This document shows positions 38,999 to 43,296 of a stretch of DNA of 64,000 bases, in pieces (within the stretch, counting starts at the first letter, position 1; each line of letters opens with the position of its first letter). The translations under genes were made by a program, and so were the position numbers. This DNA is from Ruficoccus amylovorans (GTDB taxonomy: Bacteria; Verrucomicrobiota; Verrucomicrobiia; Opitutales; Cerasicoccaceae). The notes beneath the pieces are model-generated. The model worked only from the letters and a program-made list of their open reading frames with translations. It was not told where the DNA came from and did no database searches. The stretch spans positions 1 to 64,000 of the forward strand of contig NZ_JACHVB010000043.1 in assembly GCF_014230085.1 (NCBI RefSeq), read 5' to 3'.

Positions 38999-40501
38999 CT
39001 AGGATTTGATCTGGGGGCGCTTGGGGTCGGGCCAGTCGATGTGGAAGAACTCGCCACGCGGCTTGTCGGTGCGCTCGTAGGTGTGCGCGCCGAAGAAGTC
39101 CCGCTGGGCCTGGAGAAGGTTCTGCGGGAGGTTGGCCGTGCGGTAGCCGTCGAAGTAGGCCAGGGCGCTGCTGAAGCAGGGGACCGAGACGCCGCAGGTG
39201 ACGGCGGTCGCGACGACCTTGCGCCAGCTGGCTTCGAGCTTGCCCACGGTTTCCTTGAAATACGGGTCGAGCAGGAGGTTGGCCAGGTCGGACTGGGCCG
39301 CGAAGGCGTCGGTGATTTTTTGCAGGAAGCCGGCACGGATGATGCAACCGCCGCGCCAGATCTGGGCGATTTCGCCGTAGTTAAGCTTCCAGCCGAACTC
39401 GACGGCGGCGGAACGCATGAGCTGGAAGCCCTGCGCGTAGGAGCAGATCTTCGAGCAGTAGAGGGCGTCATGGATGGCCTGGATCAGCTCGCCCTTGTCG
39501 CCTTCGTACTTGGCGGTGGGGGCGGCAATGAGCTTGGAGGCGGCGACGCGCTCTTCCTTGATCGCGCTCAGGCAGCGGGCAAAGACGGCCTCGGCCACAG
39601 TCGGGGCGGGCACGCCCAGGTCAAGCGCGCTGATCGAGGTCCACTTGCCGGTGCCCTTCTGGCCGGCGGTGTCGAGGACGATGTCCACAAAGGCCTTGCC
39701 GGTTTCAGGGTCGTTCTGGGCGAGGACTTCGCCGGTGATTTCGATCAGGAAGGAGTCGAGGATGCCGGTGTTCCACTTCTTGAAGATGTCGGCCATCTCG
39801 GCAGCGGACAGGCCGAGGAGGTTGCGCATCAGGTCGTAGGCTTCGCAGATCATTTGCATGTCGCCGTACTCGATGCCGTTGTGGACCATCTTGACGTAGT
39901 GGCCCGCGCCGTTCTCGCCGATGTAGGCGGTGCAGGGCACGCCGCCTTCAACGGGCTTGCCGGGGGCGGCGCCTTCGAGCGGCTTGCCGGTCTTGGCGTC
40001 CACCTTGGCGGAGACGGCTTCCCAGATCGGCTTCAGGTATTCCCAGGCCTCGGGGGTGCCGCCGGGCATGAGCGACGGGCCGAAGCGCGCGCCTTCCTCA
40101 CCGCCGGAGACGCCGGAGCCGATGAAGCGCAGGCCCTTCGAGGTCAGGTCCTTCTCGCGGCGGATGGTGTCGTGCCAGTAGGCGTTACCACCGTCGATGA
40201 TGATGTCGCCCTCTTCCAGGAGCGGAACGAGCCCGTCGATGACGGCGTCCGTGCCGCGACCGGCCTGGACGAGGATGATGATCTTGCGCGGGCGCTTGAG
40301 GCTGGCGACGAAGTCCTTCAGCTCGGCACAGCCGACGAGGCCGCCGGGCGTGTCGGGATGGGCCGCCACAAACTCCTCCATCTTGGAGGTCGTCCGGTTA
40401 TAGACGGAAATCTTATAGCCGTGGTCGGCGATGTTGAGGGCGAGGTTCTGGCCCATGACGGCGAGGCCGACGAGCCCGATATCGGAGACTGCTTCTGACA
40501 T
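38999..40501 (-). CDS. gnd: 6-phosphogluconate dehydrogenase, long NADP-type
   Basis: A 500-residue enzyme of the oxidative pentose phosphate pathway. The Rossmann fold reads [19 protein letters not shown], and the strand end is VYNRTTSK (N35, R36, T37), the NRT motif that binds the 2'-phosphate of NADP. The substrate and catalytic block is [20 protein letters not shown], then [16 protein letters not shown] with the catalytic Lys. The long C-terminal domain continues to EFFHIDW. Its neighbour on the same strand is a shorter, NAD-type paralog. The stop codon abuts a hairpin cassette. Confidence 0.97.
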
Positions 40502-41297: not shown

Positions 41298-42323
41298 TTA
41301 CGCCATCGGGGTGATGCCGGTCTTCTCCAGGTGGCCACCGAACTGGTAGCGCATGGCGGAGCAGACCTTGTCGGCGAAGGCGTGTTCCTCGCGCGAGCGG
41401 AAACGCGAGTACAGGGCGCTGGTCAGCACGGAGGCGGGCGTGGCTGAGTCGATGGCGGCCTCGATGGTCCAGCGGCCTTCGCCAGAGTCGGAGACGCGAC
41501 CAGCGAACTTTTCCAGCTTCGGGTCGCCGACAAAGGAGGCGGCGGTCAGGTCGAGCAGCCAGGAAGCGATGACAGAGCCGCGACGCCAGACTTCGGAGAT
41601 TTCACCCAGGTCGAGGTCGTAGTCGAGGTCGCCATGCATGGAGGGCGCGGTTTCGGCGTCCACTTCCTGCGCACGGGTGTCGCAGTTGGCGTTTTTCAGG
41701 ATGTCGAGGCCTTCGGCGTAGGCGGCCATGATGCCGTACTCGATGCCGTTGTGGACCATCTTGACGAAGTGCCCGGCCCCGGCCTTGCCGCAGTGCAGAT
41801 AGCCCTTTTGCGCGGTGCCTTTGCCGTCGGGACGGCCCGGGGTCTTGTCGATGTCGCCTTCGCCGGGAGCGATGGTAGCAAAAATCGGGTCGAGGTGCTG
41901 GACGGGGCCGTCTTCGCCGCCGATCATGAGGCAGTAGCCGCGTTCCAGGCCCCAGACGCCGCCGGAAGTGCCGCAGTCGATGTAGTGGATGCCCTTCGGC
42001 TCCAGCTCTTTCGCCCGGCGGCGGTCGTCGCGGAAGTAGGAGTTACCGCCGTCGATGATGATGTCGCCCTTGTCCATGAGCTCGGCGAGCTGGCCGATTA
42101 CCTTGTCGGTGATGGCGGCCGGGATCATAACCCAGGCAGCCTTGGGGGCTTCGAGTTTGGAGACAAATTCTTCGAGGGTGCTGGCACCGACGGCACCGTC
42201 GGCCACCAGTTCGGCGACGCTGTCCGGGTTCGTATCATAAACGACGCAGGTATGTCCCGCCTTCATCAGGCGACGCACCATGTTAGCACCCATACGGCCG
42301 AGGCCGACCATTCCTAATTGCAT
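41298..42323 (-). CDS. 6-phosphogluconate dehydrogenase, short NAD-type
   Basis: A 341-residue decarboxylating dehydrogenase of the short (GntZ/YqeC-like) subfamily. The Rossmann fold starts LGMVGLGRMGANMVRRLM and ends VVYDTNPDS: Asp30 at the strand end indicates NAD over NADP. Other blocks are GNSYFRDDRRRAKEL, DCGTSGGVWGLERGY and [22 protein letters not shown] with the catalytic Lys. It differs in length and cofactor motif from the long gnd nearby, so this strain carries both types side by side. Confidence 0.93.
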   Translation of the reverse strand: MQLGMVGLGRMGANMVRRLMKAGHTCVVYDTNPDSVAELVADGAVGASTLEEFVSKLEAPKAAWVMIPAAITDKVIGQLAELMDKGDIIIDGGNSYFRDDRRRAKELEPKGIHYIDCGTSGGVWGLERGYCLMIGGEDGPVQHLDPIFATIAPGEGDIDKTPGRPDGKGTAQKGYLHCGKAGAGHFVKMVHNGIEYGIMAAYAEGLDILKNANCDTRAQEVDAETAPSMHGDLDYDLDLGEISEVWRRGSVIASWLLDLTAASFVGDPKLEKFAGRVSDSGEGRWTIEAAIDSATPASVLTSALYSRFRSREEHAFADKVCSAMRYQFGGHLEKTGITPMA

Positions 42324-42525: not shown

Positions 42526-42645
42526 TTTTTTGGGGCGGCTACGACTTTATTTGGACTGCTCTAGATCTGTTATACGATAAACCCGGCGTGGCGGGCCTGG
42601 AGTATTCCCTTGCCGCCCGTAACCGGAGGCATCATAAGGTGTTGC

Positions 42646-43296
42646 ATGCTCCGATTCGCTGAAGAAATTGTCCTGCTGGCCCTGAACGACGAAACCGGAA
42701 AAATCAGCCGCAATGTGCCCGAGCAATCGCTCGAATGCGCCATCGCCGGTGCGCTGCTGATGGAACTGGATTTCATGAAGCGGATCGAAGCGGACCCTCA
42801 GAACATCGTGCTGGCCAAGTCCGACCCGACCGGCGACCCGCTGCTGGACGAGACCGTTTCGCTCCTGGGCAAAGTCGGCCAGGCCACCCCCATCGTCAAG
42901 GTGCTGGCACGCCTCATGGTGAAAGCGGACGAATTCGAGAGCCGCCTGCTGGCCTCGCTCATCCACAAGGGCATTCTCAAAGAACAGAACAAGTCCTTCC
43001 TGTGGATGAAGGGCGAGCGGACCTACCCGATGATCGACGGGCGCGAGGAGTCCGAGGTACGGACCCGCATCCGCATGATTATCCTGACCAACACGCTCCC
43101 GGATCCGCGCGATGTGGCCATCATCTCGCTCATGGAGGCCTGCCGGCTCTACCGCACCGTCTTTTTGAACGAGGAACTGGGCCAGTGCCGCAAGCGCATC
43201 GCCCAGATCGCGAAAATGGACTTCATCGGGCAAGGCATCGCCCGCCTGCTTCAGCTCACCGATTCCAAGTCTCTCGAAGAAATCGCAGCCAGTTGA
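42646..43296 (+). CDS. GOLPH3/GPP34-family phospholipid-binding-type protein
   Basis: A 216-residue soluble protein of the GPP34 (PF05719) family, known from eukaryotic GOLPH3, which binds phosphatidylinositol-4-phosphate at the Golgi. Two strong blocks match: LRFAEEIVLLALNDETGKI at the N-terminus followed by AIAGALLMELDF, and LAKSDPTGDPLLDETVSLL in the middle. LIHKGILKEQNKSFL is also characteristic. Bacterial homologs are mostly actinobacterial (my recollection), so its presence here is notable. The function in bacteria is not established. The start MLRFAEE matches family N-termini. Confidence 0.85.
   Translation: MLRFAEEIVLLALNDETGKISRNVPEQSLECAIAGALLMELDFMKRIEADPQNIVLAKSDPTGDPLLDETVSLLGKVGQATPIVKVLARLMVKADEFESRLLASLIHKGILKEQNKSFLWMKGERTYPMIDGREESEVRTRIRMIILTNTLPDPRDVAIISLMEACRLYRTVFLNEELGQCRKRIAQIAKMDFIGQGIARLLQLTDSKSLEEIAAS

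Follow-up and report, generated by a model that had tools for sequence, protein, structure and literature searches.

A GPP34/GOLPH3-family protein of Ruficoccus amylovorans that lacks the presumed PI4P pocket residues, and its relatives fused to cytochrome P450

The window gene, its neighborhood, and the fold of its product

The window, by which we mean the whole 64,000-nucleotide stretch of Ruficoccus amylovorans DNA analyzed here, contains a forward-strand gene for a protein of the GPP34/GOLPH3 family (Table 1); we refer to these as the window gene and the window protein. An in-frame TTG is present upstream, at 42610, and a start there would add only 12 residues. In the alignment of the window protein with its relatives, in which rows were trimmed to an MLRFAEE start wherever the ORF extended upstream, every row has MLRFAEE as its N-terminus. 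Because all of the relatives' rows begin in this way, 42646 is likely to be the start codon.

Two distinct 6-phosphogluconate dehydrogenase genes, one full-length and one short, lie close together in the window. At six of six related loci (L030 to L035), a gnd gene of at least 82% identity is found upstream on the opposite strand, at distances ranging from adjacent to about 5 kb, and this linkage is loose synteny rather than an operon. The opposite strand downstream of the window gene carries a small ORF whose start resembles that of a lipoprotein, a cupin gene, an ORF with no Pfam match, and dnaN. No operon partner of the window gene was seen, and there are no tRNAs or Rfam matches over gathering scores within the window. 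We fetched the loci of 80 of 135 relatives (7 from Verrucomicrobiota and 73 from outside it). Beyond groups of related loci, these 80 have no gene family in common except GPP34 itself (and frames on or adjoining it); the exception to this lack of shared neighbors is an ABC-transporter-type group present at 18 of the 80 loci.

Table 1. Coordinates of the features discussed in the text (positions are those of the window unless a contig or locus is named)
Feature	Position	Strand	Basis or remark
Second 6-phosphogluconate dehydrogenase gene, full-length	38999-40501	-	Close to the short form
Short 6-phosphogluconate dehydrogenase gene, divergent, upstream of window gene	41298..42323	-	Loose synteny, no operon partner
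Window gene, GPP34/GOLPH3-family CDS, 216 aa plus terminal stop	42646..43296	+	Translation, PF05719, AlphaFold model, Foldseek, VIA-align
Codon P25, equivalent of GOLPH3 W81	42718..42720	+	Profile alignment, residue check
Codon A34, equivalent of GOLPH3 R90	42745..42747	+	Profile alignment; Ala in 10/10 window-type sequences
Codon D95, equivalent of GOLPH3 R171	42928..42930	+	Profile alignment; D 3, E 3, G 2, R 1, S 1 (n=10 window-type)
Codon E98, equivalent of GOLPH3 R174	42937..42939	+	Profile alignment; Glu in 10/10 window-type sequences
Beta-hairpin L111-W120 (strands 111-114, 117-120)	42976..43005	+	AlphaFold model
Host GPP34 paralogue, contig C52	C52:6004-6603	-	PF05719
Host GPP34 paralogue, contig C21	C21:143049-143648	+	PF05719
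Third GPP34 paralogue and MscS-type gene, host contig C21	L029:8041-10819		
GPP34 gene and neighbors, Chroococcidiopsis plasmid pB	L156:5228-9814		
GPP34 with hydrophobic segments	L151:1132-2667		
GPP34 with hydrophobic segments	L176:6038-7213		
Sulfotransferase-family gene	L175:3654-4805	-	
GPP34-P450 fusion loci: L079, L082-L084, L086, L088, L089, L097, L102, L107, L109, L146-L148, L154, L155, L158-L175			

The original prediction assigned the product to the GOLPH3 (GPP34) family from motifs shared with GOLPH3 and proposed a PF05719 search and a structure model as checks. PF05719 matches the window protein at 136.7 bits (gathering cut-off, 29.1; E = 1.4e-39) over residues 5 to 202, covering model positions 2 to 198 of 201, and the motifs are present in the sequence, within blocks aligned by phmmer. 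In a phmmer search of the PDB, the window protein matches GOLPH3 (3kn1) at an E value of 2.1e-5 and Vps74 at 2.5e-4 to 4.5e-4; with a 20-row profile, these values are 4.3e-22 and 2.6e-20, respectively. With 48 sequences as input, AlphaFold gave a model with a mean pLDDT of 94.3. GOLPH3 is the model's top Foldseek match (E = 6.4e-8), and all 8 PDB chains at an E value of ≤0.001 are GOLPH3 or Vps74. By VIA-align, the model superposes on human GOLPH3 (3kn1 and 9qpq) and yeast Vps74 (2zih and 4tu3), which belong to the same PF05719 family, over 177 to 192 residues at 2.6 to 2.8 A. The alignment with GOLPH3 9qpq (189 residues, 2.7 A) has a Z score of 19.0, and the GOLPH3/Vps74 chains score 16.3 to 19.0 versus 3.9 for the next unrelated chain. 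The likeness to GOLPH3 is not due to chance, and the family assignment of the original prediction is borne out. The weak alignments to winged-helix regulators (Z ≤3.9) were not read as evidence of DNA binding. NCBIfam gave no match for the window protein.

The window protein is slightly acidic (pI 5.5). No transmembrane-type hydrophobic segment was found in it, and thus any membrane contact would be peripheral. In our reading, the gene encodes a soluble, cytoplasmic bacterial GPP34/GOLPH3-family protein. Taken alone, it is a further member of a known family, and bacterial GPP34s have already been published. A 2009 study saw prokaryotic GOLPH3 homologues (PMC2661371). In a later paper, the GPP34/GOLPH3 domain is counted in 218 bacterial species, and such proteins are described as previously undescribed in prokaryotes (PMC12402492). 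That paper reports a genetic effect of the GOLPH3-like protein SCO4440 of Streptomyces coelicolor on wall-deficient cells and muropeptides. The claim of the original prediction that bacterial roles are not established is therefore slightly out of date.

Pocket residues, paralogues, and distribution

We take the PI4P pocket of GOLPH3 to be W81/R90/R171/R174, with W88/R97/K178/R181 as the Vps74 equivalents. The numbering of the PDB chains, in which Trp and Arg are found at 81 and 90 of GOLPH3 and at 88 and 97 of Vps74, agrees with this. The window protein keeps none of these four residues; it has P25, A34, D95, and E98 in their places (Table 1), so that two of the four positions are acidic. At the position of R174, Lys or Arg is present in 10 of 10 paralogues of the C52 type (see below), in 67 of 68 non-fusion proteins of the sister clade, and in 13 of 13 class A fusions, and both the Trp and the R90 equivalent are missing from all three. 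A lone pocket Trp, without the basic set, is found in the Chroococcidiopsis protein of L156. The VIA-align superposition pairs the first residue of the model with GOLPH3 residue 59 and Vps74 residue 66, so the protein has no counterpart of the eukaryotic N-terminal tail. The window protein thus differs from GOLPH3 and Vps74 in lacking both the pocket residues and the tail, and its host is a bacterium with no Golgi. The original prediction had pointed to the PI4P binding of GOLPH3 and had named the lack of a basic pocket as grounds for refutation; PI4P binding by the window protein, which is moreover slightly acidic overall, we reject on the pocket residues. The window protein belongs to the GPP34 family but, going by these residues, is no PI4P effector of the known kind.

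The nearest relatives of the window protein, at 57 to 84% identity, come from Verrucomicrobiota MAGs and from three Cerasicoccus species of the family Cerasicoccaceae (L033 to L035), in agreement with the Verrucomicrobiota host originally predicted. The host genome contains three PF05719 genes, namely, the window gene and one gene each on contigs C52 and C21, and 2 to 3 GPP34 paralogues are present in each of the 10 Cerasicoccaceae genomes searched. A GPP34 match at an E value of ≤0.001 was found in 26 of 132 genomes of the order (25 over the cut-off) and in 33 of 337 genomes of the phylum (30 over the cut-off). We built a FastTree phylogeny of 146 GPP34 domains with midpoint rooting, leaving out rows that scored below 40 bits, duplicated another row, or had fewer than about 150 residues. 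The paralogues form separate clades, which are the window type (n=10; support, 0.992), the C52 type (n=10; 0.989), and the C21 type (n=7; 1.0). Together with the Verrucomicrobiota proteins of L036, L118, and L121, they make up one clade of 30 (0.973). With midpoint rooting, its sister is a clade of 99 domains (0.861), drawn from loci in MAGs of other phyla and from the genomes to which these loci belong, and the joint clade of 30 plus 99 has a support of 0.976.

Within flanks of about 1.5 kb, an MscS-type gene follows the C21-type gene at 3 of 7 loci, and a metY-like gene adjoins the C52-type gene at 3 of 10 loci. On host contig C21, an MscS-type mechanosensitive channel gene comes after the third GPP34 paralogue, on the same strand. 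There is no GPP34 match among 50,697 phage records, and on this count a phage origin was rejected. Among 72,556 plasmid records, 11 carry GPP34, 6 of them from Streptomyces, all at <60% identity. On Chroococcidiopsis plasmid pB, the GPP34 gene adjoins an SDR oxidoreductase gene and lies near three genes annotated as CAAX/CPBP membrane proteases.

The 73 fetched relatives from outside Verrucomicrobiota (L037 to L109) are MAGs of many phyla. Many of their names are, we presume, those of marine sponge projects, and there is no baseline for this count. A demosponge MAG paper lists the hosts Rhopaloeides, Coscinoderma, Ircinia, Carteriospongia, and Aplysina, and the bin prefixes looked for are absent, as whole words, from its main text as available. 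An enrichment of sponge symbionts among the relatives is a lead and not a result.

Cytochrome P450 fusions and sterol genes in the sister clade

In the sister clade, GPP34, on the N-terminal side, and a cytochrome P450 occur in one ORF. We fetched 34 such ORFs, of which 29 are distinct (for loci, see Table 1). In all five examples read on the correct strand (L079, L086, L107, L146, and L162), Pfam finds both domains, and the heme-cysteine motif is present in all 29 sequences. The fusions fall into two classes, which the tree does not unite in a single clade. Class A (n=13) consists of 11 core members plus L171 and L175, with a support of 0.65 with those two and 1.0 without them, and class B (n=16) has a support of 0.994. 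The nearest solved structures to the P450 part of L086 (class A) are CYP51/lanosterol demethylases (E = 3e-35). The P450 part of L162 (class B) has weak matches to several P450s, the best at 1.4e-19, with CYP51B1 at 9e-16. A model of a class A fusion was unusable (pLDDT, 33.4; pTM, 0.22; 9 rows at 78 to 97% identity to the first). Directly downstream of the fusion at L175 is a sulfotransferase-family gene. In a third architecture, found at L151 and L176, GPP34 precedes three hydrophobic segments within the same ORF, and the hydrophobic part has no Pfam family.

The flanks of the class B fusions, two of whose 16 loci are <4 kb, contain a sterol-methyltransferase-like gene at 10 of 16 loci, a Rieske oxygenase gene at 10, an AcrB-type transporter gene at 8, an MMPL transporter gene at 6, and an amine-oxidase-type gene at 5. 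In the cluster of L162, the Pfam matches, all over cut-offs, include Sterol_MT_C (59 bits), KshA_C (81), and an MMPL protein with Sterol-sensing (44) and Patched (42) matches; no NCBIfam model is over its cut-off for these proteins. Within the fetched flanks, sterol-cluster genes are present at none of the 13 class A loci and at none of the 69 non-fusion (stand-alone) loci, including the 7 from Verrucomicrobiota. Published work describes sterol gene clusters, with CYP51 or sterol methyltransferases, in sponge symbionts (PMC9531527 and PMC10070321); these resemble the surroundings of the class B fusions in having sterol-type genes, P450 or methyltransferase, in many phyla. The likeness is one of gene types; in the main texts as available, the GPP34 domain goes unmentioned ("golgi" occurs 0 times in PMC9531527 and PMC10070321, and "gpp34" occurs 0 times in PMC9531527). 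No bacterial GPP34-P450 fusion is named in the titles or the beginnings of abstracts in the literature searched.

We sampled 400 genomes from two classes, 197 from the class of G443 (the genome of L046, a Dehalococcoidia MAG) and 203 from the class of G440 (the genome of L037, an Acidimicrobiia MAG). GPP34 is present in every one of the 26 genomes that have a sterol methyltransferase domain, in 25 of them in a long, fusion-type frame, a form that in this sample was identified mostly by length rather than by reading each frame. In the G443 class, GPP34 is over the cut-off in 21 genomes (25 at an E value of ≤0.001), 19 have a frame of at least 675 aa, and the 18 genomes with the methyltransferase domain are all among these 19; short and long GPP34 forms occur together in 18 of the 21. 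In the G440 class, 13 genomes have GPP34, 8 have a long frame (one of only 647 aa), and 8 have the methyltransferase domain. Long frame and methyltransferase coincide in 7, and GPP34 is present in 8 of 8 methyltransferase genomes. The Fisher p values (1.4e-24 for the G443 class and 2.5e-11 for the G440 class) ignore kinship and therefore overstate the evidence. The methyltransferase domain is missing in 8 of the 34 GPP34 genomes of both classes. In a separate set of 23 genomes, picked for having GPP34, a long frame is present in 17. Of the 24 frames of at least 640 aa from this set, 23 were read, each of them a P450 fusion; the one remaining is at the same place as L107, also a fusion. Of the four frames of 400 to 640 aa, the three that were read (L151, L176, and L177) include no P450 fusion.

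The window ORF ends after GPP34 and has no P450 domain. No P450 was found in the host genome with a query that matched 7 of 14 controls. The sterol methyltransferase domain was found in 0 of 337 Verrucomicrobiota genomes with a query that matched no control genome there, and this same query did match 18 of 197 and 8 of 203 genomes of the two other classes. The sterol link is therefore one of the sister clade, whose sterol-linked GPP34-P450 fusion is the lead worth following.

A docking module and its alternatives

Our best explanation, in which we place middling confidence, is that the window protein, a soluble cytoplasmic GOLPH3 fold of one of three Cerasicoccaceae paralogue types, is a docking or scaffold module. 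It would dock peripherally at the cytoplasmic membrane, independently of PI4P, and, once docked, would hold a lipid-acting or other membrane enzyme there. The family and fold point in this direction, the eukaryotic relatives being enzyme adaptors recruited to the membrane (PMC8421267), as do the 29 distinct P450 fusions, the sterol-methyltransferase-like and Rieske genes near class B, the joining of GPP34 to a transmembrane-like part at L151 and L176, the co-occurrence with sterol methyltransferase in two classes, and the retention of three paralogue types in the family. Because the sterol link lies with the sister clade, it is by homology only that we infer such a module in the window protein. 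Judging from the P450, sterol-cluster, and transmembrane fusions of the relatives, a membrane-lipid role is plausible. Weighing against the docking module are the host genome in which no P450 was found, the Verrucomicrobiota count for sterol methyltransferase, the lack of an operon partner, the 69 stand-alone loci without sterol-cluster genes, co-occurrence statistics that ignore kinship, and the published SCO4440 phenotype, which, as described, concerns the cell wall and not lipids (PMC12402492).

The squalene-hopene cyclase distribution also argues against a docking module and bears on the idea that the window protein serves a hopanoid pathway of Cerasicoccaceae, which we regard as improbable. 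This cyclase is encoded in 4 of 4 sampled genomes of the family at 4.1e-115 or better, the host (E = 2.0e-116) among them, all with GPP34, and the sister-clade fusions sit in sterol-type clusters. However, in the phylum sample, 13 of 17 genomes with a strong cyclase match lack GPP34 over the cut-off, no strong cyclase match is present in 26 of the 30 genomes with GPP34, and in the host the cyclase gene (C14) and the three GPP34 genes (C43, C52, and C21) are on four different contigs. GPP34 does not track the cyclase consistently in the phylum. Hopanoid enzymes are possible clients of the window protein because the cyclase is present in the genome, although the counts gave no statistical link. 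A role as a PI4P effector in the manner of Golgi GOLPH3, marking internal membranes, is very improbable: family and fold would fit, but no pocket residue is kept, two of the positions are acidic, the tail is gone, and PI4P is not known to be a usual lipid of such bacteria.

A role in the cell envelope or in osmotic stress, like that of SCO4440, with wall enzymes or channels as partners rather than lipid enzymes, is possible, if somewhat unlikely. The SCO4439/SCO4440 mutant is reported to have altered muropeptides and wall-deficient cells under osmotic stress (PMC12402492), and the MscS-type gene that follows the C21 paralogue in the host, as at 3 of 7 C21-type loci, would suit such a role. The window paralogue, however, has no MscS-type neighbor, the published effect may be indirect, and this explanation overlaps with docking at the membrane. 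Compared by description, SCO4440 is, like the window protein, a bacterial stand-alone GPP34, but it comes from an actinomycete and has a conserved D-Ala-D-Ala carboxypeptidase neighbor, SCO4439, where the window gene has the opposite-strand gnd gene upstream. A recent acquisition from a eukaryotic host is hardly credible. Although the 2009 study inferred GOLPH3 transfer between eukaryotes and prokaryotes (PMC2661371), the window protein has 21 to 22% identity to GOLPH3/Vps74 by structural alignment versus 35 to 41% to the rows from other bacterial phyla in the alignment of relatives, and the three paralogue clades are spread across Cerasicoccaceae.

A broader scenario extends the docking module to the whole bacterial family, and as a whole we think it unlikely. 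Bacterial GPP34 would be an ancient docking module for enzymes of sterols or membrane isoprenoids. In sterol-methylating bacteria, the GPP34-fused P450 would work with the sterol methyltransferase, the Rieske oxygenase, and the sterol-sensing transporter; the eukaryotic GOLPH3 role of keeping enzymes on a membrane through PI4P would have arisen by the addition of the PI4P pocket and a coat-binding tail; and the Cerasicoccaceae trio would be lipid-enzyme versions of the module.

GOLPH3 has been studied as a Golgi and cancer protein, and for its relatives in bacteria no role has been agreed upon. The questions that the present findings raise, namely, whether the GPP34 half binds membranes or sterols and whether it directs the P450, are testable. 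A concrete, testable hint of the bacterial domain's possible function comes from the P450 fusions, together with the near-complete coincidence of GPP34 with a sterol methyltransferase domain in two sampled classes.
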